Below are positions 1 to 11,144 of a stretch of DNA of 26,902 nucleotides, piece by piece. A program made the position numbers and the translations under genes. The notes below the pieces were generated by a model. The model saw only the letters and a program-made list of their open reading frames with translations. It ran no database searches and was not told the DNA's origin. How positions within the stretch are numbered: the stretch's first letter is position 1; each line of letters starts with the position of its first letter. The DNA is taken from positions 1 to 26,902 of the IMG/VR virus record IMGVR_UViG_3300022744_000088; one strand, 5' to 3'. The DNA comes from a virus.

Positions 1-2
1 CG

Positions 3-125
3 AAGCCGGATGACAGGCCCTGCACATGCAGCCCTCAAGACAGCCCGCCAGAGCCGTGCGCCAAGCAGTACGCGGCCAGCGAATGCATGTGCCTGACCAC
101 CGCCGCGCGTGCGGGTGGGGCCTAA
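3..125 (+). CDS. 3' end of a Cys-rich cassette protein (partial)
   Basis: An open frame enters from the left edge and gives about 40 residues before a TAA. The start lies outside the window. The visible tail is rich in Cys and Pro, with C-T-C, a lone Cys and C-M-C spaced as in small metal-binding proteins, but no family is recognised. The stop is formed by the TAA of the GCCTAAC R'' box of the first attC-like site, as expected for the ORF of an integron cassette. That positional agreement is the main reason to accept this frame; the short length alone would not justify it. Confidence 0.5.
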   Translation, partial: KPDDRPCTCSPQDSPPEPCAKQYAASECMCLTTAARAGGA

Positions 126-194
126 CGACTAGGTTAAGGCGGGTCCGACAGCGCGCAGCGCTGTTGGGCCTCGCCCTTGAACCGCCAGTTCGGC
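120..194 (+). other. attC: attC-like recombination site A
   Basis: R'' is GCCTAAC (120-126), followed by a 5-nt spacer and L'' GGTTAAGGCG (132-141). L' is CGCCCTTGAACC (172-183), pairing with L'' apart from an extra C and an extra G. After a 4-nt spacer comes R' GTTCGGC (188-194), one base off the GTTRRRY consensus. The centre forms a hairpin (145-154 with 158-167, three-base loop). The extrahelical G on the L' side is the known determinant of which strand the integron integrase uses. Confidence 0.68.
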
Positions 195-218
195 CTGTAG
201 CCGAAGCGAAAGGATGAT

Positions 219-782
219 ATGACCAAGCACTGCCCAGGATGCAGCCACCCGACGATATGCCGCACGCATGGTTGCGGAGCCGAAGAGGCGCGGCGAAACA
301 AGGCGACCCTGAAGGCCCCCAGCGACGCTGCGCGCTCAATCGCCAAGGCGCTGAACCTGCCCAAGAACACCGTGGCGTTCACTCTCAGCATGCGCGTCGG
401 CGAAGCAGCCAAGCTGGTAGTGGAAACGCAGCCCGGCCAAGAGGAGGGAAAGCAACTGGCCGCGATCCTGCAGCACTACCGAATTCAAGAGATTGAAGGG
501 CCTAACGCCGAGTTGAGCCCGCCGAGCCCCATGGGCGAGGTCGGCTTGAACGAGAGGTTAGGCCGATCACTGCTGCACAACCTGCGAACGCTTGGCACGG
601 AGCATTCTGATTTCAGCGTCGGCGACGAGGCTGCGGACGAGATCGTGCGCCTGAGCTGCGCGGTCGAGTTGCTGATGGTTGGCCTCAAGCAAGTGTCCAC
701 GCGGCCAGCAGAGGAATCCGCCTTCATCGCCGAGGTGTTTTTGAAAAACGCGAAGGACAGATACGGGGTGCGCATCGTATGA
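219..782 (+). CDS. Hypothetical protein, apparent fusion of two cassette ORFs across attC site B
   Basis: 187 aa, no family recognised. The ATG at 219 has an AAAGGA ribosome-binding site at 209-214. The first 30 residues contain C-P-G-C and C-R-T-H-G-C, a possible small zinc site, followed by a helical stretch to about residue 93. Residues about 94-115 are the translation of attC site B, low-complexity and Pro-rich, because the R'' box is read CCT AAC instead of giving a TAA stop. Residues 116-187 form a second, mostly helical segment. The simplest reading is that loss of the first cassette's stop joined it to the following cassette ORF. Its stop overlaps the next start (ATGA), so the two are probably translationally coupled. 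Confidence 0.6.
   Translation: MTKHCPGCSHPTICRTHGCGAEEARRNKATLKAPSDAARSIAKALNLPKNTVAFTLSMRVGEAAKLVVETQPGQEEGKQLAAILQHYRIQEIEGPNAELSPPSPMGEVGLNERLGRSLLHNLRTLGTEHSDFSVGDEAADEIVRLSCAVELLMVGLKQVSTRPAEESAFIAEVFLKNAKDRYGVRIV
500..563 (+). other. attC: attC-like recombination site B (inside an ORF)
   Basis: R'' GCCTAAC (500-506), spacer GCCGA, L'' GTTGAGCC (512-519), L' GGCTTGAAC (543-551), spacer GAGAG, R' GTTAGGC (557-563). R'' and R' are perfectly complementary. L'' and L' pair with one G-T wobble and an extrahelical G at 548. The centre can fold through GCCC (526-529) and GGGC (533-536). At 64 bp it is a typical attC length. The stretch GTCGGCTTGAACGA resembles the 3' half of well-known cassette attC sites. 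It is the best-formed site in the window. Confidence 0.78.
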
Positions 783-1048
783 CAGAGGCACAGATCCTCC
801 GCGAAGAGTTTGCGCGTCTGAGGCGCGATTTTCTTGCCTTTGCTCAGGCTCAGGACACTTGGGCCAACGAACGCCGATGGCGCGGCGATGAGGCTGGCAT
901 GCGCCTGCATTGCGAGGTGCGCGAAGCCTACAGGTCTGCCGCTCACTGCCGTTCGCCGGCGAGGGTCCGCTCGATGGGCGTGTTGTGGTGCACCGAGACG
1001 AACGGGGCGAGCTGCTGGCCCCACCACCAGCAGCACCCGAAGGAGTGA
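779..1048 (+). CDS. Hypothetical small protein, cassette ORF
   Basis: 89 aa, no family recognised. The start overlaps the preceding stop as ATGA and no strong ribosome-binding site is visible, so it probably depends on coupling. Residues 1-55 are charged and probably helical. From about residue 56 the composition changes to a Trp/Cys/His-rich tail that looks less protein-like, and another frame over the same bases (about 940-1045) reads more like ordinary protein. A frameshift near 930 is therefore possible. The stop lies inside the AAGGAG-TGA ribosome-binding region of the next gene, which favours the frame as drawn. Confidence 0.5.
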   Translation: MTEAQILREEFARLRRDFLAFAQAQDTWANERRWRGDEAGMRLHCEVREAYRSAAHCRSPARVRSMGVLWCTETNGASCWPHHQQHPKE

Positions 1049-1051
1049 AGC

Positions 1052-1234
1052 ATGGGCTTCAAGTTCAACCTTGGCGAGAAGGTGACCGTGGAAGTGAGCG
1101 GCGAGACCGGCGAAGTGCTGGGCCGCGCCGAATACACGACGGCCGCCAACAACTACCTCATCCGCTACCGCTGCGCCGATGGCCGCGCCGTGGAAGCGTG
1201 GTGGCAGGAGGACGCGCTGCGCACCGCGGCCTGA
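1052..1234 (+). CDS. Small conserved phage-type protein, KOW/SH3-like
   Basis: 60 aa with an AAGGAG site just upstream of the ATG. The sequence is a run of short beta strands: F-K-F-N-L-G-E-K-V-T-V, then G-E-V-L-G-R-A-E-Y, then N-N-Y-L-I-R-Y and E-A-W-W. The final pair of Trp is followed by a short acidic stretch. I recognise this pattern from small phage and prophage proteins of unknown role, and the order of strands suggests an SH3-like barrel. It is the third ORF in the same cassette and ends about 40 bp before attC site C. Confidence 0.7.
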   Translation: MGFKFNLGEKVTVEVSGETGEVLGRAEYTTAANNYLIRYRCADGRAVEAWWQEDALRTAA

Positions 1235-1272
1235 TGCAGCGGCGGTGGCCTGCCTGGGCTGCTGCCAGTGCA

Positions 1273-1324
1273 CCACAACGTTCGAGCTAAGCCGCCGAAG
1301 GTCGGCTTGAGCGAAGGGTTAGGG
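1273..1324 (+). other. attC: attC-like recombination site C
   Basis: L'' GCTAAGCC (1286-1293) and L' GGCTTGAGC (1304-1312) pair perfectly over 8 bp apart from one extrahelical G at 1309. The short centre folds GCCGCC/GGTCGGC around GAA. R' is GTTAGGG (1318-1324). R'' (CCACAAC, 1273-1279) is weaker, two mismatches to R'. The 3' half is nearly the same as that of site B (GGTCGGCTTGA, then CGA or GCGA, then GGTTAGG), so the two sites appear related. Confidence 0.68.
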
Positions 1325-1351
1325 CGCTGGTGGAGAAACTAGGAGAACGTG

Positions 1352-1708
1352 GTGAGCAAAGGAATGACATGGGCGCTGACCGACCACCTATGCAAAGGGT
1401 GCGGCGGGCGGGTACTACGGTGCGTGAGCGGGGGCGGCCCGACTGGCGGCGGCAACCCGATATGGAAGTGCGCCGACTGCGGTAAGGCTGCGGCAGCGAT
1501 GGGGCCGGAAGTGCTGTGCTGGTGCGGCTACAGCCACAAGCACAACCACAACGCGACGGCCTACGTGTGCCAGCCGTTCACGGTGCTGGAGGCCAAGCCC
1601 GAACTGCTGGCCGCGTTCCAGGCTTGCGGCTGCGATCCGAAGCGAGGCGGCGAAGTGGGAATCATGCTGGAGCGTGACCTACAGGCCGTGATGCGCGGTG
1701 CGCCCTAA
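1352..1708 (+). CDS. Cys-rich zinc-ribbon-like cassette protein
   Basis: 118 aa from the GTG at 1352, which sits 6 nt after AGGAG (1341-1345). A GTG at 1349 is also in frame but too close to that site. The N-terminal half has C-K-G-C, a further Cys, then C-A-D-C, an arrangement expected for a zinc ribbon, followed by L-C-W-C-G and a His-rich patch (S-H-K-H-N-H-N). The C-terminal half is helical with one more C-G-C. No enzymatic motif is seen, and nucleic-acid binding or protein docking is only a guess. The TAA stop is the core of the R'' box of attC site D, the classic cassette arrangement. Confidence 0.72.
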   Translation: MSKGMTWALTDHLCKGCGGRVLRCVSGGGPTGGGNPIWKCADCGKAAAAMGPEVLCWCGYSHKHNHNATAYVCQPFTVLEAKPELLAAFQACGCDPKRGGEVGIMLERDLQAVMRGAP

Positions 1709-1810
1709 CGCAAAGTTGACCGGCCCGAGCGAACACAAAGGACACACCGAATGAGCACTGACGACACGAACGCAGCCCGTCGAGGGTCCGGGTCGAACGA
1801 CCTGTTAGGC
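1703..1810 (+). other. attC: attC-like recombination site D (long centre carrying a start codon)
   Basis: R'' CCCTAAC (1703-1709), spacer GCAAA, L'' GTTGACC (1715-1721), L' GGTCGAAC (1791-1798) with extrahelical G at 1795, spacer GACCT, R' GTTAGGC (1804-1810). At 108 bp it is within the known attC range. The roughly 70-nt centre contains an AAAGGA ribosome-binding site (1737-1742) and the ATG at 1751 of the next ORF, which is then read through L' and R'. Confidence 0.7.
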
Positions 1811-2173
1811 GTTGCGTCCGAAGCGCACAAGCTGACAGACCGCCAGATTGCCGACATGGCGTTTGCAGTGCTGCGAGAGCACAACGACAACCGGCTTTGG
1901 CGTGCGCTGACCTATGACAGCGGACCCTATGACGTGACCACCCCAACATTGGCGCTATGCCACCTGGCGCGGGTGTTCTTTGCAGCCGGGGTTGCTGCCG
2001 CACTGGCTGGCTGCGTGGACATGGTGCAGCCACCCGACATTGCTGTGGCCGAGGAACTGTGCGCCAAGCGCGGGGGCTATTCGCACGCCCAGCGCTGGGA
2101 GCGTGGCACGGTCCTGGATATTACCTGCAAGGACGGCACGCAACTGCAAGTGCGCGTGCCGAAGAAGGGTTGA
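1751..2173 (+). CDS. Hypothetical protein starting inside attC site D
   Basis: 140 aa, family not recognised. The AAAGGA at 1737-1742 is 8 nt before the ATG. Residues 1-20 (Arg/Gly/Ser-rich) are translated from the attC centre and its R' box, so recombination at this site would exchange the extreme N-terminus. Residues 25-70 are probably helical. Residues 73-88 form a hydrophobic segment ending A-A-L-A-G-C, which looks like a lipobox but sits too deep to be a normal signal peptide unless translation starts internally. The C-terminal 50 residues form a small beta-rich domain. The next gene starts 3 nt after the stop codon. Confidence 0.62.
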   Translation: MSTDDTNAARRGSGSNDLLGVASEAHKLTDRQIADMAFAVLREHNDNRLWRALTYDSGPYDVTTPTLALCHLARVFFAAGVAAALAGCVDMVQPPDIAVAEELCAKRGGYSHAQRWERGTVLDITCKDGTQLQVRVPKKG

Positions 2174-2175
2174 CC

Positions 2176-2448
2176 GTGTTGATACTGAAGGACGAGATTC
2201 GCACCGCCCGCAAGTTCTACGATTGCGACGCGAGCGCGGCGTGGAACAACTACGGCCCGCCGCGCGATGAACTGCCGCCAGATGACCGCCTAATCCTTGA
2301 AGGCGCGCAGGCGGACAAATGGAAGATCAGGCCGGGCCAGCGATACCGCTGCATCGTGTTCCGCGATGGGCGCGAACTGGTGACGCAGCGCACCAGGCTG
2401 GATATGGATGCGCTGTGCCATCGGCACGAGTTGTATGACGACGCCTAA
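2176..2448 (+). CDS. Hypothetical protein, cassette ORF
   Basis: 90 aa from a GTG start just after the preceding stop; GAAGAAGGG upstream can serve as ribosome-binding site. An ATG at 1957 is in frame, but the extension overlaps the preceding ORF and reads unlike protein. The product is charged, with a Tyr/Trp-containing N-terminal third, a D-E-L-P-P-D-D-R turn and a C-terminal beta stretch (Y-R-C-I-V-F-R-D-G-R-E). No family is recognised. The TAA stop lies within GCCTAAC, the R'' box of a fifth attC-like element. Confidence 0.68.
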   Translation: MLILKDEIRTARKFYDCDASAAWNNYGPPRDELPPDDRLILEGAQADKWKIRPGQRYRCIVFRDGRELVTQRTRLDMDALCHRHELYDDA

Positions 2449-2462
2449 CTAGCAGTTATCCG
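2443..2462 (+). other. attC: attC half-site E (R''-spacer-L'' only)
   Basis: GCCTAAC (2443-2449), a 5-nt spacer and GTTATCCG in the L'' position. No L'/R' pair follows within normal attC length. A perfect 10-bp inverted copy of 2451-2460 (GATAACTGCT) occurs at 2702-2711, about 240 bp away, but the base positions expected for R' there read GATACTC. This is either the broken terminal site of the array or a very long degenerate attC. Confidence 0.45.
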
Positions 2463-2466
2463 AACC

Positions 2467-2661
2467 ATGAAAAGTCGCCGCCATCACCATAGCCGTTGGC
2501 ACCACTGCAACACGCCCGAGGCCCTGCGCCGCCGACGTGCAGCGGCGGACGCCAGGCGCGAGGCATTGGCCGCGACTCTGCCGCCTGCCTATGAGCCGCC
2601 CGCCTGGATGATGGCGGGGCTGTGGTGCGGTTTCATGGCGCGCTCACCGGCCAGGCCCTGA
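2467..2661 (+). CDS. Small basic hypothetical protein
   Basis: 64 aa, Arg/His-rich at the N-terminus (K-S-R-R-H-H-H), then an Arg/Ala helical stretch and a hydrophobic M-M-A-G-L-W-C-G-F-M segment near the C-terminus. The start lacks a clear ribosome-binding site and follows the half-site E directly. The ORF lies entirely between the two arms of the 10-bp inverted repeat at 2451-2460 and 2702-2711. Function is unknown, and coding status is uncertain because Arg-rich frames arise easily in this base composition. Confidence 0.35.
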   Translation: MKSRRHHHSRWHHCNTPEALRRRRAAADARREALAATLPPAYEPPAWMMAGLWCGFMARSPARP

Positions 2662-2743
2662 GCAGCGACCGAACGTCGGCAGCGTGAGACTCAGCCGCGT
2701 CGATAACTGCTCGATACTCCCGCAGTACAGATACAATATTCCC

Positions 2744-3271
2744 ATGCACCCAAGCCCCCAGCGACTTCGTGAGTTGTTGACCTATGACCCAGATACGGGA
2801 GAACTGCGCTGGCGAGATCGACCAGTGAGCGACTTTCGATGGCCGTGGACACACGCCCAATTCATGCGCACGATGGCTGGCAAATTGGCAGGCACAGTTG
2901 GCGCGAATGGGTATCTCTACATTAGGCACAAAGCCCAAAATCTCCTTGGGCATAGAGTCGCATGGGCTATTCACTTTGGCTCCTACCCTGAAGACCGAAT
3001 TGATCACATCGACGGAGACAAAACAAACAACCGATTGCACAACTTGCGCGACGCAACTGCATCTATCAATTCGCAAAATATCAAGCGCGGCAGAGGAAAG
3101 GTTGGACTTCTCGGTGTTTGCCATGTGCCAAGAAACAAGACGAACCCGTATCAAGCATTCATTGCTATTGGAGGCGTTTCGCGCGGACTTGGCGTCTACA
3201 AGACGGCGGAAGAAGCACACGAGGCGTACCTGCATGCAAAACGTCGGCTGCATGCCGGGTGCACTATCTGA
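2744..3271 (+). CDS. HNH endonuclease with C-terminal AP2-like region
   Basis: 175 aa from the ATG at 2744; an in-frame ATG at 2684 adds 20 unconvincing residues. Residues 69-112 carry the HNH core: G-H-R-V-A-W, then D-H-I-D-G-D-K-T-N-N-R-L-H-N-L-R, then Asn residues at 109 and 112. Residues 121-170 (G-V-C-H, then Y-Q-A-F-I, then Y-K-T-A-E-E-A-H-E-A) match the AP2/ERF-like DNA-binding region found behind many phage HNH nucleases. These act as free-standing homing nucleases or in DNA packaging. The gene is visibly less GC-rich than its surroundings, suggesting recent transfer. It converges on Rz with 8 nt of overlap. TACAAT at 2732-2737 could be a -10 box for a leaderless transcript, but no good -35 is seen. 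Confidence 0.88.
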   Translation: MHPSPQRLRELLTYDPDTGELRWRDRPVSDFRWPWTHAQFMRTMAGKLAGTVGANGYLYIRHKAQNLLGHRVAWAIHFGSYPEDRIDHIDGDKTNNRLHNLRDATASINSQNIKRGRGKVGLLGVCHVPRNKTNPYQAFIAIGGVSRGLGVYKTAEEAHEAYLHAKRRLHAGCTI

Positions 3272-3803
3272 TCACTTTTGGCCAACTGGCTTGCAATTGT
3301 CTGAGGCGAGAAGCGAGGTCTTCAGCGTCTTCGACAGTTTGTCGATAGTCAGACAGTAACGTTCCAACCACGTCCCCAAGGGGTATACCGGGCTCTTGTC
3401 TGGTAGATCCGGGATCACTGGCGGCGCCACTGGCGGCGGCTGAACAGGTGACAGCGGCGAGCTGGTCGAGCACGCCGACAGTGCGGCGGTCAGCAGCAGC
3501 GCGAGCGGCCACCAGGGACGTGCGTTCGGTCGTGCGTGCATCGGTGGCCTCCTTGAGCCGTTGCTGCCAGGTCTGCTCGGTGCGGCGGTTGGCCTCGGAT
3601 TGCGCCAGGGCGGCGCTGGCGGCGTTGGCGACGAGTTCGGCATGCTCTGCCTTCACCCGCGAGGTTTCGGCCCGCTGCTGCTCGAGCTGGCCGCTCATGC
3701 GCCAGTGCTCAAGCCGCGCTCCCGCGCCTGCAATGGCAAGCACCGCAGCGCCGGCCGCGACCCAGCGCACCCAGCCGAGGCCGAAAAGGTCGGCAACGCT
3801 CAC
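3264..3803 (-). CDS. Rz: Rz-like i-spanin (inner-membrane spanin)
   Basis: 179 aa from a GTG that overlaps the preceding stop as GTGA. An N-terminal membrane anchor (residues about 10-28, W-V-A-A-G-A-A-V-L-A-I-A) is followed by a long Ala/Glu/Arg-rich coiled coil through about residue 120, the expected layout of a periplasmic i-spanin. With the Rz1 partner it would bridge inner and outer membrane and fuse them in the last step of Gram-negative lysis. The 3' half encodes Rz1 in another frame. The end overlaps the convergent HNH gene by 8 nt. Confidence 0.85.
   Translation of the reverse strand: MSVADLFGLGWVRWVAAGAAVLAIAGAGARLEHWRMSGQLEQQRAETSRVKAEHAELVANAASAALAQSEANRRTEQTWQQRLKEATDARTTERTSLVAARAAADRRTVGVLDQLAAVTCSAAASGAASDPGSTRQEPGIPLGDVVGTLLSDYRQTVEDAEDLASRLRQLQASWPKVIR
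3272..3541 (-). CDS. Rz1: Rz1-like o-spanin lipoprotein, nested in Rz
   Basis: 89 aa read in a different frame wholly inside Rz. The ATG at 3541 gives a basic N-terminus, a hydrophobic stretch (W-W-P-L-A-L-L-L-T-A-A) and a lipobox L-S-A-C. After the predicted lipidated Cys comes a Pro-rich segment (P-V-Q-P-P-P-V-A-P-P), typical of Rz1. Longer upstream extensions of the frame are possible but would bury the signal peptide. Nested Rz/Rz1 is well known from lambda. The mature protein is about 70 residues, long for an Rz1. Confidence 0.87.
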   Translation of the reverse strand: MHARPNARPWWPLALLLTAALSACSTSSPLSPVQPPPVAPPVIPDLPDKSPVYPLGTWLERYCLTIDKLSKTLKTSLLASDNCKPVGQK

Positions 3804-3979
3804 GGCCGAGGCTCCAACACGCGCTGCGCCACGTTGGCGGCCGGGTAGCCCAGCATGGCCGCCAGCATCACCGTGACCCATGACTCGTCTGCAATGACGC
3901 CACGCCAGCGCAGCGCAGTTGCCAGCACCATCCCAAGGATGGCGACCCACAACTTGCGGCTGCCCCACTCGGCGTTCAC
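3800..3979 (-). CDS. Small two-segment membrane protein, candidate holin or antiholin
   Basis: 59 aa from a GTG overlapping the previous stop (GTGA), with the same overlap into Rz. Two hydrophobic segments are visible: residues about 10-22 (L-W-V-A-I-L-G-M-V-L-A) and about 33-46 (S-W-V-T-V-M-L-A-A-M-L-G-Y), separated by a short polar turn. Size, topology and place between lysozyme and spanins fit a class II-type holin. Two other membrane proteins in the cassette (37 aa and 140 aa) are rival candidates, and no sequence family settles it. Confidence 0.68.
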   Translation of the reverse strand: MNAEWGSRKLWVAILGMVLATALRWRGVIADESWVTVMLAAMLGYPAANVAQRVLEPRP

Positions 3980-4089
3980 TCGTCGCCTCCATCAGCACCG
4001 CCGCGCCAGATGTCCACAGCCAGCCTGATCATCCAGGCCACCAGCGGCAGCAGCAGCGACACGGCGAGGATGGCCAGCAGCGCGTCCAT
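3976..4089 (-). CDS. 37-aa membrane peptide in lysis cassette
   Basis: ATG start overlaps the lysozyme stop (TGATG) and its own stop overlaps the next GTG (GTGA), so it sits inside an unbroken chain of coupled genes. One hydrophobic segment spans residues 3-22 (A-L-L-A-I-L-A-V-S-L-L-L-P-L-V-A-W-M), followed by an amphipathic and then Gly/Asp/Glu-rich tail. It resembles pinholin- or antiholin-sized membrane peptides, but the role is inferred from place and topology only. Confidence 0.65.
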   Translation of the reverse strand: MDALLAILAVSLLLPLVAWMIRLAVDIWRGGADGGDE

Positions 4090-4616: not shown

Positions 4617-5035
4617 GGTCCAATCCCCGGCGTTTTGTCGACCACCGCCTTGATGGCGGCCCAGATGCCGACCACGCCCATGCCGATGGCGCCGAGCCAA
4701 CCGATGACCGTCTTGAGCGTTTTGACGGTCGTCAGGCCCGCTTCCACCTGCTGCGTGATCTCGGTATTGCGCGCCAGTTCTTCACCCTGGCGGGCAATGG
4801 TGGCTTCCACTTTGGGCCGCCACTCTGCCGACTCCTTGACGTGCAGCCGGAGGTCATCCGCAATGCCGCGCACCGTGCGCAACACCTCGGTCTGCCCCAT
4901 GGTCAGCTCGGCAATCTGCGATGCCTGGTGCCGAGCGTGAACCATCAAAACGCGGATCTGCTCGCGGTCGTGCTCGAGGTCGGTCTTGCCCGGCTGGTGG
5001 GGCACGGTCAAGGGTATGGGTTCGGGTGCACTCAT
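4613..5035 (-). CDS. Coiled-coil protein with C-terminal membrane segment, candidate holin
   Basis: 140 aa. The N-terminal 25 residues are Pro-rich. Residues about 25-105 are charged with heptad-like hydrophobic spacing, consistent with a coiled coil. Residues 110-130 form one membrane segment (V-I-G-W-L-G-A-I-G-M-G-V-V-G-I-W). This cytoplasmic coil plus tail anchor resembles XhlA-type lysis accessory proteins. It directly precedes the lysozyme with GTGA overlap. Whether it is the holin, an antiholin or a partner of the two smaller membrane proteins cannot be told from sequence. Confidence 0.7.
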   Translation of the reverse strand: MSAPEPIPLTVPHQPGKTDLEHDREQIRVLMVHARHQASQIAELTMGQTEVLRTVRGIADDLRLHVKESAEWRPKVEATIARQGEELARNTEITQQVEAGLTTVKTLKTVIGWLGAIGMGVVGIWAAIKAVVDKTPGIGP

Positions 5036-5047
5036 CTCGGGCCCTCG

Positions 5048-6493
5048 TCAGTACGTGGCGAATGGCTTGGCCGGCCGGCTGTAGGCAGCGGTGCGTCGAG
5101 CCCAGCCGCGCGTAAACCGGAACCGCTGCAGGTTGCCGGCGACGGCGTAGGTGCTGGACGGCCCGTAGCCGTAGTTGCCCAAGTGGACCTGCATCGTGCC
5201 GCTGGGCATTACGCCCGGCACATAGGTGCCCTGGCTCACACCATCAAGCCACAGCGTGGCTGTGGCGTCGTCGTACGTGACTTCGACGTAGTACCAGGTG
5301 TTGATGCTGATCGACCCGCCGGTGATCCTGTACGCACCGCCGCCGGCCGCCGTCTGGGTGAAGAAATGGATGGTGCCGGTTTCCACGTTGACACTGATGC
5401 GGTTGTTGCTGGCAGTGCCGATCTCGCACACCACGGGGATGTTTGCCACGCTCGTGAGCCGCATCCAGAAGCTGAAGGTCCACGGCCCGCCTCCGGTGTT
5501 GAAATCGGTGGACGAATCGCTGGACAGCCACGACCCGGTGCCGGCAAACGACGTCGAGCTGGCCGCATAGGCGCCATACGTGGCGTTAAGCGACTGCGCC
5601 GTGCTGGTGGTGATGCTGGAGCCGTTCAGCGTCCAGGTGCGCCCCGATACCGCATCGGTCCACGTAGTGCCGCCGTTGGTGCCCTCCAGGCTCAGCGCAC
5701 TGGTGGTCAGGTCCCAGCCAGGGTCTCCCCATCCGCGCTCGCCAATCAGCCACAGCGCCAGGCCCTTGGTGCCGGTGCCTGCGGTGTCGACGTCGACGTT
5801 GATGTCGGCGTCGTCTGCGATCACCGCGCCGTCAGCCGTGAAAGCGTAAGCCGCTGCCGCGGTGGTGCTGCTGGTTTCGCTCACGTCGATGGTGAGCTTG
5901 GTTCCCAGGATGCTGTCGGTCCCGTCGTTGATGTCCACCGTCGGCAGGCCGCTGCTGGAAACCGTCGAGACCGAGGCGCGCACATTGGTCAACAGCATGG
6001 CCGCAGGCGCCCGCAGTGCCAGTTTTCGCGTGCCGGTGGTCAGCGCGGTGGTGGGCGTGTCCAGCGTGAGCGGGATTTCGATGCGCTCGGCCGTGGCCGT
6101 TCCGCCAAACTCGGCGCCAAAGACACCACCGCGGCCGAATCGGTAGTCGCTGTAGCTCGTGATCGAGTACGTGGCGCAGACGACCTTGTACAGCCGCGCG
6201 TAGGTCTGCGGCGTGCACCAGTTGGCGCCGCTGGTGCTGCTCGACACCGCGCCGGTTGACTTGTTCACAACCACATAGTTGGTGCGGCTGCCGGTCAGCG
6301 TCAGCGTGCCATTGGCCACGGCCACGCCGGCAATGCGCCCGCCGAAGTATCCCCAGGTCAGGCCCAACGTCGTCGAGTCGTTGCGGCCAAAGTAGGCCGC
6401 CGGCGACATGGCATCGAACAGCGCGTTGGCAGTGGCCTCCTTGTTGCTCTGGCTGGTCGTGATCAGCGTCAGGTTGGTGGTGCTGTCTGCCAT
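5048..6493 (-). CDS. LamG/concanavalin A-like tail protein, likely receptor-binding
   Basis: 481 aa. Residues 1-125 form a Gly/Thr-rich beta domain of a kind common at the start of phage tail-tip proteins. Residues about 195-250 form a beta segment with D-D-A-D-I-N-V-D-V-D and L-A-L-W-L-I-G, also recurrent in phage tail proteins. Residues about 265-475 form a concanavalin A-like LamG fold: F-S-F-W-M-R-L-T, then W-Y-Y-V-E-V-T-Y-D, then A-T-L-W-L-D-G-V-S-Q-G and a final R-F-R-F-T-R-G. Such domains bind glycans. Placement right after the tail-tip genes and before lysis genes is where receptor-binding proteins are usually found. Carbohydrate binding at the host surface is inference. Confidence 0.82.
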   Translation of the reverse strand: MADSTTNLTLITTSQSNKEATANALFDAMSPAAYFGRNDSTTLGLTWGYFGGRIAGVAVANGTLTLTGSRTNYVVVNKSTGAVSSSTSGANWCTPQTYARLYKVVCATYSITSYSDYRFGRGGVFGAEFGGTATAERIEIPLTLDTPTTALTTGTRKLALRAPAAMLLTNVRASVSTVSSSGLPTVDINDGTDSILGTKLTIDVSETSSTTAAAAYAFTADGAVIADDADINVDVDTAGTGTKGLALWLIGERGWGDPGWDLTTSALSLEGTNGGTTWTDAVSGRTWTLNGSSITTSTAQSLNATYGAYAASSTSFAGTGSWLSSDSSTDFNTGGGPWTFSFWMRLTSVANIPVVCEIGTASNNRISVNVETGTIHFFTQTAAGGGAYRITGGSISINTWYYVEVTYDDATATLWLDGVSQGTYVPGVMPSGTMQVHLGNYGYGPSSTYAVAGNLQRFRFTRGWARRTAAYSRPAKPFATY

Positions 6494-6495
6494 GG

Positions 6496-7539
6496 TTATC
6501 CGATCGAAATGGATGCGGTGTTGCCCAGTCCCACGCGGTCGGAGACCTGCTGCACGGTGAGCGTGTAGCCGCTGAAATTGCTGCCGGTGCCGAACGTGGC
6601 CGTCGTGGTGGTCACCTCGGTGTCGACGTCGTAGGTTGGCCCGAATGACACCCGCACGCGGTAGCGCTCGCTGGCTTCACCCAGCGGCACGTCGCCGCCG
6701 TTGGCCCATTGGCTTGGAATGCGCGTGCGGCGTTTCCAGGTTGCTACGTAGGCGCTGCCGTTGCTGTAGCAGCGCAGGTCGACCGGATCGAGCGGAAGCA
6801 GCGACGTCTGCGTTTCAGTGGCGCTGACGTCTGCGCCGGCTGTCACGGCGTTGCCTAGACTGACGGCCCGATAGATCACCGTGCGGCCCAGCAGCGACAG
6901 CGGAGAATCCACGCGCGCCACGGCATCGTCGAGCAGGATGAATCGGTCGCCGATCACCTGCGTGCCAATGGCCGACTCGGTGCCCAGCCTGCCGCGCAGC
7001 AGGCCGGTGAGCTGGTATTTCAACGTGCCCACCAAGCTGGCCGCCTTGAACTGCACCACCTCGTTGCCGATCAGCGCCAGGTTGCTGCCGGCCAGCAGCA
7101 GCGCATGCGTCACCGACTCCAGATCGCCAGCACCCATGAGCTGCACGGTGACGCCGCCGGGGTCGACGGTGTTGCCGCCGCGCCAGGTGTTGGGCAGGTC
7201 TTGAATCACGCCCAATGTGGCACGCTTGGTGATCTGCGCGATTTCTGCAAAGGTGGTGCCGCCGTCGGTGCTGCGAAACAGCGCACAGCCGCCCCAGCTG
7301 GCCTGCGCGCTGCCTGCGGCCACGTAGATGCCGGGCGTGTCGTCACCATCGGCCAGCAACGGCAGCTGCAGCACCTCGAGCACGGTGGAGCCGATGCCGG
7401 TGAGCGTCGAACCGGGCGTCGGCGTGGCACCCGTGCTGGCGCTGGTGTAGATGGTGGTGTCGCCATCGTCCACGCACACAAACTTGAGCACGCCGCCGTC
7501 ATCGGTGCGCTCCAGCACGCGCAGGGTGTAGCTGCTCAT
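6496..7539 (-). CDS. Tail-tip protein, C-terminal piece (GTA-like host-specificity type)
   Basis: 347 aa. It carries features of the C-terminal half of GTA/phage host-specificity tip proteins: a V-V-Q-F-K-A-A beta segment, L-T-G-L-L-R-G-R-L-G-T-E, then D-P-V-D-L-R and T-W-K-R-R-T-R-I-P followed by a fibronectin-like end. The start ATG comes one base after the UGA stop of the upstream tip gene, in the +1 frame. The first residues (Y-T-L-R-V-L-E-R-T-D-D-G-G) look like the direct continuation of the domain ending at V-I-T-V-Q-D in that gene. The two products therefore very likely form one functional tip protein. Confidence 0.8.
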   Translation of the reverse strand: MSSYTLRVLERTDDGGVLKFVCVDDGDTTIYTSASTGATPTPGSTLTGIGSTVLEVLQLPLLADGDDTPGIYVAAGSAQASWGGCALFRSTDGGTTFAEIAQITKRATLGVIQDLPNTWRGGNTVDPGGVTVQLMGAGDLESVTHALLLAGSNLALIGNEVVQFKAASLVGTLKYQLTGLLRGRLGTESAIGTQVIGDRFILLDDAVARVDSPLSLLGRTVIYRAVSLGNAVTAGADVSATETQTSLLPLDPVDLRCYSNGSAYVATWKRRTRIPSQWANGGDVPLGEASERYRVRVSFGPTYDVDTEVTTTTATFGTGSNFSGYTLTVQQVSDRVGLGNTASISIG

Positions 7540-7540
7540 G

Positions 7541-9832
7541 TCACGTGTCCTGCACCGTGATCACGTCAGTCGGCTCCACGGTGCTGTAGGCCAGCGTCGT
7601 CGAGATCGTGCGCTTGGTGCGCTGCGCCCAGGCTTGATACAGCAGCACGTCGGCCACCTGGCGGGCCTTGTCGGACTCCATCACCACCGGCAGCTCGATG
7701 CTCGACTGCTGGTCGCTGTAGCCGGCCTGCCGGCGCGCTTCGGCGGTGTTGATCTGGTAGTCCAGCGTCGGGTCCTTGAAGGCGACCGTCACCACGTCGG
7801 GCAGCTCGCTTTCCTGGCCTCGCTCGTGCTGGATGAGTTCCTGTGCGGCCTGGCCAATGCCGGCGCCCAGCGCGGTGGCCGGGATCGTGGCCGAACTGGT
7901 GCGGCCCCGCTTGCGGAACGCAATCTTGGTGCCGCTCTCCACGGCGTCGAACTGAAAGGCCGCCGCCAAAGGCTCAAGCGCCGCACGAGCGGCCATGCGC
8001 TGGGTGCGGGTGTAGCCGATGACCTGGTCAGTGAGCTCGGTGACGTCGATCTGGCCCGAGGTCAATCCGGCCTGCGTGCAGACGTGCGCGACGATGGCCG
8101 AGAGCGTGACGGAGCCGGCGGCGTGGTTGCCGGCATTCCAGGTGCTGGCAACGCTGGAGGTGCTTTGCGCGTAGCTGCTGACCACGGCCGGATAGGTCAC
8201 GTCGGTGCTGAAGTACGGCGGCGTGGCGGTCAACGTGCCGCGCATCAGGCCCAAGGTGATGGCCGACAGGGCCTGCGCATCCCAATACGCCGAGCTGCTG
8301 TAGTTGGGGTCACCCGGCAAAAGCACAGGGCCGAGCGCGTTCTGGTAGAGGATGTTGTTGCGGTACTCGATCGCGCACAGTTGCTTCGCCGTGCCCACCA
8401 CGGTGGCCCAGATGCGGTTGGGCACGACGCTGCCATCGGTCAGCACGCAGTGGCCCGGGTCGCCCTGCACCTCTACTGCTCCCTCGGGTGCCGTGTAGGG
8501 GCTGCTGCCAGCGCGGCAGGTGTGCACCGGGTGATAGGCCTCGCGGGTGGCCGTCAGCTCCAGCAAATAGTTGGGGCTGGCCGTGCTGAAGTCGCCGCCG
8601 CCAACCGCAACGGACCCGAATGGCGTGGTGGCATAGCCTGCCGGCGGCGGCACGGCTGCCGGGTATTGCGCTGGAGGCGGCCCCCAGATCTGGCGCCACA
8701 GCGCAATGAATCGCGTGTCCCAGCTGCTGGCGTATCCGGCCAGGCGCATGTCCACCACGCCGTGCGTGAGCACCGGCACGCTCAGGCCATACAACCCGGG
8801 CGCGAAAGGCCCGTTCTGGATCTTGTAGGCCGATGCCATCGGGTAGGTGTACTGCACCGACCCTTCCACGCTGGGGATGTATCCCGGCACGTCTGGCAAC
8901 GGCTTCTGCTCGATGATCTGCGCACCACCCGCGGCCACGTTTGGCGTGTCGTTGTTGGCCGTGTACCACCAGCCGCGGCCCGCCCAATTCACCGACGCCC
9001 GCGCCGGGTCGTTGTTCCAACCGGTGAAGTTGGCCGCCTGTTGCGTGGCAATTTCACTGAAGGTGTAGGCCGTGGCTGGCGAGGTGGGCTGCGTCTTCCA
9101 GCCAAACACGGTGTTGCCGATGGAATGGGTCGGCATGCCGTCGTTCTCGGTGACGTCCCAGCGGTAGATGCGCAGCGGCTCACGCAGCGCTGACGATGCC
9201 GGGTCGCTCTCGGCCTCTGGCACCGTCCCGCTCACCTCGACGCTCACCTGCGGCATGCGGTTGCCGTGCTTTTCCAGCGGCAGCGCAGTGAACACGAGGT
9301 AGCTGATGCCGCGCAGCGCGGGCACCTTGCCGGCGCCGACCACGGCCTCGATGGTGGGATCCGGGCTCTGCAGCTCGTCGCCCGTGTAGAACGTCATGTA
9401 CTGCGACCGGAACTTTGCGCTGGCGGCGGCCACGTCGGCCGTGGCGGTGTCGCGCGCGTCGTAGACGCATTTGGCATCGAGCCACACGCGCCGCAAGCCG
9501 GAGATTTCACCCTCAGCGATGAGCACGGCGAAGCTCAGCGAGTAGCTGTACGTGGTGACCTTGGGGCCGCCCTTGCCGCCTGACTTCTTGCTGGTTTCGA
9601 CCAAGCTGCCCGACCAGATGGCTGGGCAGCTCACGCGGTCGCTGCCGTAGATGTGGGGCACCGGCGCGCCGTAGGTCGACACCGAGACCGTCAGGTCGTC
9701 GAGTCGCGGCCCTTGCATGCGCGGGCCTGCCACGGCGCCGCCAATCATCGAGCCGATGGCAAACCCCAATTGGGGCATGCCGAAGAAGCTGCCGACCGCT
9801 GCGCCGGCAATGGCCAGTGCAAGCTGTGACAC
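7541..9832 (-). CDS. Tail-tip/host-specificity protein, N-terminal piece (GTA-TIM-like, J-type)
   Basis: 763 aa from a GTG overlapping the NlpC stop. The N-terminus has a Gly/Ala-rich membrane-like segment (I-A-G-A-A-V-G-S-F-F-G, then G-S-M-I-G-G-A-V-A-G-P), followed by G-P-R-L-D-D-L-T-V-S-V-S-T-Y-G-A-P-V-P and Y-G-S-D-R-V, the hallmark opening of this tail-tip family. Later parts include the hub-like region and a cysteine pair. In the tail it would form the distal hub that contacts the host and opens for DNA exit. The usual protein of this family is about 1,100-1,300 aa in one chain; here the chain stops at UGA and the remaining 347 aa follow in the next gene. Confidence 0.88.
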   Translation of the reverse strand: MSQLALAIAGAAVGSFFGMPQLGFAIGSMIGGAVAGPRMQGPRLDDLTVSVSTYGAPVPHIYGSDRVSCPAIWSGSLVETSKKSGGKGGPKVTTYSYSLSFAVLIAEGEISGLRRVWLDAKCVYDARDTATADVAAASAKFRSQYMTFYTGDELQSPDPTIEAVVGAGKVPALRGISYLVFTALPLEKHGNRMPQVSVEVSGTVPEAESDPASSALREPLRIYRWDVTENDGMPTHSIGNTVFGWKTQPTSPATAYTFSEIATQQAANFTGWNNDPARASVNWAGRGWWYTANNDTPNVAAGGAQIIEQKPLPDVPGYIPSVEGSVQYTYPMASAYKIQNGPFAPGLYGLSVPVLTHGVVDMRLAGYASSWDTRFIALWRQIWGPPPAQYPAAVPPPAGYATTPFGSVAVGGGDFSTASPNYLLELTATREAYHPVHTCRAGSSPYTAPEGAVEVQGDPGHCVLTDGSVVPNRIWATVVGTAKQLCAIEYRNNILYQNALGPVLLPGDPNYSSSAYWDAQALSAITLGLMRGTLTATPPYFSTDVTYPAVVSSYAQSTSSVASTWNAGNHAAGSVTLSAIVAHVCTQAGLTSGQIDVTELTDQVIGYTRTQRMAARAALEPLAAAFQFDAVESGTKIAFRKRGRTSSATIPATALGAGIGQAAQELIQHERGQESELPDVVTVAFKDPTLDYQINTAEARRQAGYSDQQSSIELPVVMESDKARQVADVLLYQAWAQRTKRTISTTLAYSTVEPTDVITVQDT

Positions 9833-10278
9833 TACGCCACCCCCGGGTAGCCGTAGGCGCACACGATGCGCGATCGCCAGATGGGCGATAGGCGGTGCTC
9901 GATCACCTTGCCGGCTGCCTCCAGCGCGTGGACGATGGACAGCCCGCCCCACCGGTAGTCGGCCAGGATGGCAACATGCTGCGGCTCGCTCGCAAAGCTC
10001 ATCAGCACCACGTCGCCACACTGGGGCTCGTCAACGCGCGCCATGAACGACTCCAGCACGCGCTGCAGCGTGCCGTTGGCAGGCTGCCGGCCGTAGCCGC
10101 CAAAGCGCGGGTCGAAGTGCACCTGCCACCAGTCAGGCGGCACGATGCCCAGCGCCACCGCCACGCCGCCCACCAGGCCACCGCAGTCGGTGCCCAGGCT
10201 CTTGGTGCGGGCCTGGTGTGCGAACGGCGTGTCAAGCCACGCGCGTGCCTCGGCGGCCACGTCGGCGCGGCTGGTCAT
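9832..10278 (-). CDS. NlpC/P60 cysteine peptidase, tail assembly
   Basis: 148 aa. The catalytic Cys32 sits in T-D-C-G-G-L-V, and His101 in P-Q-H-V-A-I-L, matching the NlpC/P60 fold. The third polar residue is probably His117. This is the counterpart of the NlpC-like protein of GTA and lambda-like tail modules, which trims peptidoglycan during DNA entry or processes tail parts. The ATG overlaps the DUF2163 stop (ATGA), and the stop overlaps the tip gene start (TAGTG). Confidence 0.9.
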   Translation of the reverse strand: MTSRADVAAEARAWLDTPFAHQARTKSLGTDCGGLVGGVAVALGIVPPDWWQVHFDPRFGGYGRQPANGTLQRVLESFMARVDEPQCGDVVLMSFASEPQHVAILADYRWGGLSIVHALEAAGKVIEHRLSPIWRSRIVCAYGYPGVA

Positions 10279-11144
10279 CCCTGCCCCCCGACGATCAGCG
10301 TCTTGTCGCGGCCCGGGACGGCCCAAAACCCGCGGAAGTTCACCACGTTGTCGAACTTGGTGCTGCAGTCGCCGGTGACCACGCCAGCGCTGCTGACCAG
10401 GTGCCGCTTGTCGCAGCCGGCAATGAGCGTCACGCCGTCGGTGGCCGCCAGGTCATACGGCAGCGGCAGTTGCAGCGTGATGGTCGCGCCGGTGTTGTTC
10501 TTGATGTCGGCCACGATGCCGCTGTTGGCGCCGGAGGTGAACGTGGCCTTGCCGGCTGCAAAGTATGCGTCGGCCTTGGTGACGGCGACCACGAAGACGC
10601 GCCGGCTGCTGGCGCTGCTCACCGTCGTGGCGTGCGTGAAGGTGGTGAGGTCCTTTGTGCACCGCGCATCGCCCAGCTCGGCGTTGCACAACGGCTGCAC
10701 CACGGCGCCGACGTTGTTCTGCAACTTCTGCATCAGCCCGCGCAGCTCGGCCACAAAGCCGCCGCCGCGGCGCTGGATGTTGCCGATCTCGCCCACGCGC
10801 ATGACCTCGGCGCCGTCGGACAGGTTGGCCCAGTTCACCTGCCGCAGCTCCACCGCGGCGCCATCCCACAGGCCGGCCTCGATGTCGGCCTCGGTGATGC
10901 CGGCAGAGTCAATCAGCCCCACCACCTCGAGGTCATCAACGTTGAATGCGGCCTTTGTGGCAATGGCGCTGCCCGAGAAAACGCTGGTTGGCTGGTACGT
11001 CGTGCCGCTGTACGTGATGGCCACGTCGTGATCGGTGAAAGCGTACACGTCGCCATCGGTGCGCGTGATCTTCCAGATGCGCGCCAGCGTGAGCGCGCTG
11101 CCGGCGTAGTGCGTGACCAGGCCGCTGTCGATAGCCTTGGTCAC
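10275..11144 (-). CDS. DUF2163-family tail protein
   Basis: 289 aa from a GTG overlapping the DUF2460 stop (GTGA). Recognisable DUF2163 features include L-A-R-I-W-K-I-T-R-T-D-G near the start, F-T-D-H-D, an N-V-D-D-L-E-V-V-G strand and a C-terminal C-D-K-R, then a Cys, F-R-G-F and P-G-R-D. The Cys-rich C-terminal part is typical. In the gene transfer agent of Rhodobacter and related phages, this protein forms part of the distal tail hub together with DUF2460 and NlpC, the same order as here. Confidence 0.9.
   Translation of the reverse strand: MTKAIDSGLVTHYAGSALTLARIWKITRTDGDVYAFTDHDVAITYSGTTYQPTSVFSGSAIATKAAFNVDDLEVVGLIDSAGITEADIEAGLWDGAAVELRQVNWANLSDGAEVMRVGEIGNIQRRGGGFVAELRGLMQKLQNNVGAVVQPLCNAELGDARCTKDLTTFTHATTVSSASSRRVFVVAVTKADAYFAAGKATFTSGANSGIVADIKNNTGATITLQLPLPYDLAATDGVTLIAGCDKRHLVSSAGVVTGDCSTKFDNVVNFRGFWAVPGRDKTLIVGGQG

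Follow-up and report, generated by a model that had tools for sequence, protein, structure and literature searches.

Reverse-oriented attC sites and small cassette ORFs beside the late genes of a tailed phage

The IMG/VR record IMGVR_UViG_3300022744_000088 is a linear virus sequence of 26,902 bases, both ends of which are contig ends; this whole stretch is hereafter called the window. Integrons are bacterial gene-capture platforms, and their cassettes spread antibiotic-resistance genes in bacteria. A first inspection of the window from its letters alone (the sequence-only reading) had proposed that integron gene cassettes with attC recombination sites adjoin its phage late genes. Four elements with an R''-L''-L'-R'-like make-up are indeed present in a single orientation beside small open reading frames (ORFs), at 120-194, 500-563, 1273-1324 and 1703-1810. 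The sites and cassettes are listed below. Three other viral contigs are used throughout for comparison, L002 (IMGVR_UViG_3300043406_000016), L084 (IMGVR_UViG_3300048837_000737) and L126 (IMGVR_UViG_3300034109_000875).

Recombination sites and cassettes of the window

3-125, plus strand: 3' end of a Cys-rich ORF (from translation), in a cassette cut by the contig end; its stop is the TAA of box A
120-194, minus strand: attC site A (class-1 model 22.4 bits, E=5e-4; bulged-stem detector 36.0)
126-505, plus strand: cassette 1, from the cut in box A to the cut in box B (from the box positions, with ends assigned by analogy to the shared cassettes)
219-782, plus strand: 187-residue ORF reading through attC site B (from translation)
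500-563, minus strand: attC site B (class-1 model 39.5 bits, E=1.2e-8)
506-1278, plus strand: cassette 2, with ORFs 779-1048 and 1052-1234 (box positions)
1273-1324, minus strand: attC site C (class-1 model 46.5 bits, E=1.5e-10)
1279-1708, plus strand: cassette 3, with the body of site C and ORF 1349-1708; the whole unit recurs in L002
1703-1810, minus strand: attC site D, spanning 108 nucleotides with an unusually long loop (detector 34.5; homologous site in L084)
1709-2448, plus strand: cassette 4, with the body of site D, ORF 1751-2173 (140 residues) and ORF 2176-2448 (90 residues); the whole unit recurs in L084
1739-1753, plus strand: Shine-Dalgarno motif (AAAGGA) and ATG of ORF 1751, within the loop of site D (from the sequence)
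2443-2449, minus strand: terminal box GCCTAAC, the attI-proximal edge of the array; the homology with L084 ends exactly at 2449

We searched the window with a covariance model trained on 13 attCs from plasmid class-1 integrons, the central loops of the longer ones having been shortened. This check, which the sequence-only reading had called for, gave significant matches at three of the four sites (E from 1.5e-10 to 5e-4), all on the minus strand, and sites A, B and C score at most 9.8 bits on the plus strand. Site D is supported by its structure and by homology, namely the bulged-stem detector, L''/L' pairing with one extra base (AAGTTGACC / GGTC[G]AAC) and the homologous site of L084. The left box of site A, GCCTAAC, covers 120-126, with a crossover expected after 125, and in site B both boxes are intact, the minus-strand L'' motif being GTTCAAGCCGAC. 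Thus, the bulged stem and the R''/L''/L'/R' layout of a cluster of attC sites lacking an integron integrase (CALIN) are found at three sites by the model and at site D by structure and homology. All four lie in the same orientation within 1.7 kb, where an array calls for at least two within about 4 kb. The idea that every element has the full layout holds only in part, as all four elements are present, but the left box of the site at 1273 is degenerate and the box at 2443-2449 stands alone, with no attC body behind it. At this array edge, the minus-strand sequence GGATAAC-TGCTA-GTTAGGC (2443-2460) resembles a simple integrase site and differs from the attI junctions of L084 and L126.

The ORFs are arranged in register with the sites. 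Three of them stop at the TAA of a box, at 125, 1708 and 2448, as the sequence-only reading had noted, and no sigma-70-like promoter was found within positions 1-4000. The ORF 1349-1708 product has 119 residues, is Cys-rich and looks zinc-ribbon-like by eye. ORF 2176-2448 corresponds to PHROG 13613 (cassette 4 PHROG match, E=7e-19), and Pfam searches with the cassette proteins gave no match of weight. A 72% homologue of the cassette-3 gene is found outside any attC array in another viral contig (L003:10001-10348); judging from this homologue, phages also carry it as a regular gene.

Could these sites be mere look-alikes, that is, intergenic hairpins such as terminators or regulatory RNAs unrelated to integrons? 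Hairpins between phage genes are common, and site D scores low. However, the model trained on plasmid attCs gave E-values down to 1e-10 in the window and 0 matches at E<=1 in 40 control phage loci homologous for TerL (785 kb). With the bulged-stem detector, 3 sites were detected in the window's first 4 kb, against 0 in 20 dinucleotide shuffles and a background of 0.07 per 10 kb across 80 control loci from phages (TerL relatives, which served as controls only). An Rfam scan of the window at the database's own thresholds returned nothing. Cassette units are also shared box to box between contigs, and a true integron integrase is encoded beside such arrays in two relatives, L084 and L126 (see below). 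We therefore regard the look-alike explanation as very improbable.

Orientation of the sites and start signals in their loops

In the class-1 controls, the extra base of the attC stem lies in the ORF-proximal arm, whereas in the window the opposite arm, remote from the ORF stop, carries it. The extrahelical base is thus in the L'' of the attC strand, the minus strand, while the plus strand encodes the cassette ORFs. As the model also scores the minus strand, the attCs are inverted relative to the genes. A version of the detector that permits the extra base in the right arm only recovered the class-1 sites poorly, which exposed this reversal. The sequence-only reading had followed the canonical scheme, with an ORF followed by its attC and strand choice by an extra G in L'; this has to be revised, as the sites are reverse-oriented attCs, each placed 5' of its cassette ORF. 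The cassette ORFs of the window are antisense to attC, unlike the sense genes of a usual array, which have attC at their 3' end. The plus-strand ORFs appear to be the coding ones, which is supported by a third-position bias: substitutions at codon positions 1/2/3 number 2/3/23 between ORF 1349-1708 and its L002 homologue, and 6/6/18 between ORF 1751-2173 and L084.

We counted the directions of ORFs of at least 50 codons ending at attC sites in viral and cellular sequences. The sites were defined by the class-1 model, to which site D of the window was added manually; most contigs had come from motif searches that were blind to ORFs. ORF calling is crude in GC-rich DNA, and the coding strand was backed by family matches and codon-position bias in the cases checked. 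In chromosomes of the order Burkholderiales, 54 ORFs are sense and 5 antisense to attC, and other cellular intI loci gave 24 and 3, respectively. The window together with a first viral set showed the opposite trend, with 35 antisense and 13 sense ORFs (Fisher p=2.8e-12 against Burkholderiales).

The loops of many viral sites also harbour a start signal, defined as a Shine-Dalgarno core and an ATG within the attC loop followed by an ORF that spans at least 50 codons and leaves the site across the far box. This is the case for 38 of the 96 long viral sites, site D among them, versus 0 of the 32 long cellular sites (p=2.5e-6). In the viral sets, a start signal in the sense direction was never found in an attC loop. 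The leader peptides predicted from the loops are alike, e.g. ...vrltdglg-P, ...gsseglg-P and ...pverpvr-P, and that of ORF 1751 (AAAGGACACACCGAATG) belongs to this group.

Shared cassettes and phage surroundings

Two cassettes of the window recur as whole units in other viral contigs. Positions 1277-1710 (cassette 3) match L002 4658-5096 at 90% nucleotide and 97% amino acid identity, positions 1704-2449 (cassette 4) match L084 9954-10698 at 92% nucleotide identity, and the 140-residue ORF 1751-2173 is also present in L085 and L086. Both whole-unit matches end within a few bases of the left boxes (GCCTAA↓C, the arrow marking the cut) and not of the right boxes. Mobile units are bounded at the R' core site (G↓TTRRRY), and the left boxes are the R' of the minus-strand sites. 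Judging from the sequences, an integrase that recognises minus-strand attCs would be expected to move a unit with GCCTAA↓C at both ends and the attC body before the gene. After the final unit, which ends at 2449, no attC body is present, as expected at the attI-proximal edge.

Alternatively, the array may be a dead remnant, captured once by a phage long ago and since deprived of mobility. ORF fusion across site B, the degenerate box of site C and the lack of intI in the fragment are in line with this proposal. It is nevertheless improbable, given that unrelated phages hold cassettes 90-93% identical, with intact boxes and in different gene surroundings, and that substitutions are concentrated at third codon positions. 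These sequence features suggest fairly recent exchange under selection.

The rest of the window is occupied by the following features.

2467-2661, plus strand: 64-residue ORF between the array and the HNH gene (from the ORF list)
2684-3271, plus strand: HNH endonuclease gene (PHROG 99, E=2e-50; Pfam HNH_3)
3272-26860, minus strand: lysis-tail-head-packaging block of a tailed phage, convergent to the array (PHROGs: endolysin, tail proteins, tape measure, major tail, capsid, portal, TerL)

The PHROG matches to terminase, portal, major capsid and tail genes identify a tailed phage (Caudoviricetes). G+C contents are 64.1% for the array and 66.2% for the late block, and a megablast search of the window against phage records gave zero matches.

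Arrays of this kind are embedded in phage genes in other contigs as well. In L002 and L089, five sites are flanked by RecT, NinB and HNH genes on the left and by genes for a Holliday-junction resolvase (RuvC), TerS, TerL and portal on the right, and the cargo includes a DNA methyltransferase. The order in L084 is Erf/RecE-like recombination genes with SSB, the array, an integron integrase, an excisionase, a phage integrase and a convergent endolysin, and that in L126 is a deoxynucleoside monophosphate kinase, the array, an integron integrase, an excisionase-like gene, a phage integrase and convergent tail genes. An array followed by convergent late genes is thus common to the window, L084 and L126, and the HNH gene of the window (2684-3271) occupies the position of intI-xis-int in these relatives. 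Further arrays adjoin genes for RecT (L257) or Gam-like proteins (L206 and L208). A tail-tip protein search yielded one relative, L195, which is distant and without attCs, so that the junction cannot be compared in a close relative. An ARAGORN scan for tRNA genes as att sites in the relatives found none; tRNA-like 3' ends are visible by eye after int in L084 and L126. Type IV pilin-like genes (PHROG 'pilin' moron) are located beside arrays in L084 (8293-8757) and L086 (2031-2492).

A further possibility is that the array is a host chromosomal integron beside a prophage attachment site, the contig consisting of a provirus and its flank. Prophages often have lysis genes at one end, the contig is linear and possibly a fragment, and some IMG/VR contigs do hold canonical host-type arrays. 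Those of L248 (10 sense, 0 antisense), L213, L214 and L258 are canonical, sense-oriented attC arrays that probably represent host integrons beside prophages. However, the window ORFs are antisense to attC as in phage arrays, unlike those of Burkholderiales chromosomes, and the window cassettes are common to phage contigs, while the cassette genes searched were not found in 399 Burkholderiales-order genomes, in plasmids or in phage records (two proteins). L084 and L126 moreover share the array-then-convergent-late-genes order, with a phage integrase in between. For L084 itself, the notion that the array is host flank was rejected, since the phage excisionase, integrase and endolysin genes come after it. 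We thus consider a host integron unlikely, if slightly less so than a dead remnant. By analogy with the relatives, the window sites very probably belong to attC-bearing cassettes of the phage: the possibility, raised by the sequence-only reading, that the array is part of the phage draws support from the same cassettes in other phage genomes and from the layout of the two intI-bearing relatives. The fragment itself contains no intI.

Integrases, proposed mode of exchange and known systems

The integron integrase of L084 scores 416 bits with TIGR02249 (cut-off 265) and is ~53% identical to IntI1, and that of L126 is 74% identical to it. In a phylogenetic tree, the two group together with full support at the end of a long stem. 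Their closest cellular relatives in a scan of GTDB representatives are 49-52% identical over most of the protein. Among 399 genomes belonging to the same order as an Oxalobacteraceae (Burkholderiales) metagenome-assembled genome, identities reach 51-56%, and 88 of these genomes hold an integrase relative at E<=1e-100. Because cellular relatives are only 49-56% identical, the pair is, from these comparisons, known here from viral contigs only.

The explanation that we favour, and hold to be probable, is that the window carries the attI-proximal end of a CALIN-type array in a phage early operon, with inverted attCs 5' of the ORFs and cassettes that serve as translation units. The array would occupy the final part of a rightward early operon in a tailed phage. 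A mobile unit would run from one GCCTAA↓C to the next, with crossover at the left box, and comprise an inverted attC on the 5' side followed by one or a few small ORFs, the last stop codon of the unit often being the TAA of the next box. At site D and dozens of related viral sites, the attC loop with its Shine-Dalgarno motif and ATG would supply both a translation start and an N-terminal leader, so that the leader ORFs are presumably translated. As no sigma-70-like promoter was found in the array, we infer that transcription proceeds by read-through from the promoter of the phage operon rather than from an integron Pc. Insertion in a fixed orientation at attI or at another attC would then yield a co-directional, translatable gene. 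The cassettes would be moved by an integron integrase, either the IntI of the host or, in relatives, that of the phage itself.

Several observations weigh against this explanation. A TIGR02249 search found no integron integrase in the 26.9 kb fragment, and neither a phage int nor an attP was seen in the window. On its left side, the array ends at the contig end, and it is by analogy that we place it inside the phage. The class-1 covariance model does not recover site D, which scores only 9.3 bits, and the left box of site C is degenerate (CCACAAC). The latter, together with ORF 219-782, an in-frame fusion of cassettes 1 and 2 across site B into one gene, indicates that parts of the array may be decaying. 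Finally, a second viral set is mixed, with 88 antisense and 64 sense ORFs, which is due partly to canonical host-type arrays and partly to crude ORF calling in GC-rich DNA.

Integrons and CALINs are known in phage genomes, including TJE1, P12002L, PH101, Va_90-11-286_p16 and M16-3 (Qi et al. 2023, PMC9892861), and IntI1 recombines several phage attC sites (PMC9892861). Like the window, these genomes contain attC clusters with small ORFs, some with intI. However, the TJE1 array, which we subjected to the same test, has the normal orientation, with the ORF followed by attC, and TJE1 and PH101 are termed typical in that study; inverted cassettes or start codons in attC are not described in the searched text of PMC9892861. 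Mobile class 1 integrons share with the window the attC anatomy and the L''/R'' motif, and their IntI is related to the L084 integrase, but their ORFs run in the direction of attC, which follows the gene at its 3' end, and are transcribed from Pc. In the 'reverse' integrons of Treponema (PMC3607928), integrase and cassette genes likewise have an uncommon mutual orientation, but there it is the intI gene that is flipped towards attI, whereas in L084 and L126 intI is normal relative to attC and the ORFs are turned. ORF-11 and ORF-18 of attI1 and short ORFs in attC (PMC8876359) are further examples of a recombination site whose Shine-Dalgarno motif and start codon aid translation. Those ORFs encode short peptides of their own and are coupled to the gene that follows, while here the loop-started ORF is the cassette gene itself, opposite to attC. 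We found no account of inverted-ORF arrays or of start codons in attC in the open-access literature, which is weak evidence of absence.

Phage integrons being already known, what appears to be new is the inverted layout with start codons in attC. Dozens of viral contigs carry arrays, attC-bounded cassettes are common to unrelated phages, and the layout is opposite to that of bacterial chromosomes. It is somewhat likely, in our estimation, that some tailed phages own an integron system, with inverted attCs on the 5' side that provide a ribosome-binding site and start codon, and with the IntI clade of L084 and L126, by which they trade early genes such as those for methyltransferases. If so, this would be a site-specific route for the modular exchange of phage early genes, which would explain shuffled accessory genes, and a case in which a recombination site also serves to start translation. 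The direction of ORFs relative to attC, sense or antisense, offers a simple sequence test to tell phage-type arrays from host integrons in viral contigs.

Other viral contigs harbour more distant integrases. Virus Rctr41k (KX853513.1, our L197; positions 4680-5678 and 8415-8813) has an integron-integrase-like gene 41-43% identical to the phage IntI and weak attC-like sites among methyltransferase genes. A second group of viral integrases, 38-40% identical, is found in L128, L129 and L131 around 7500-10951, along with long attC-like sites that seemingly hold start codons and are barely recognised by the class-1 model.

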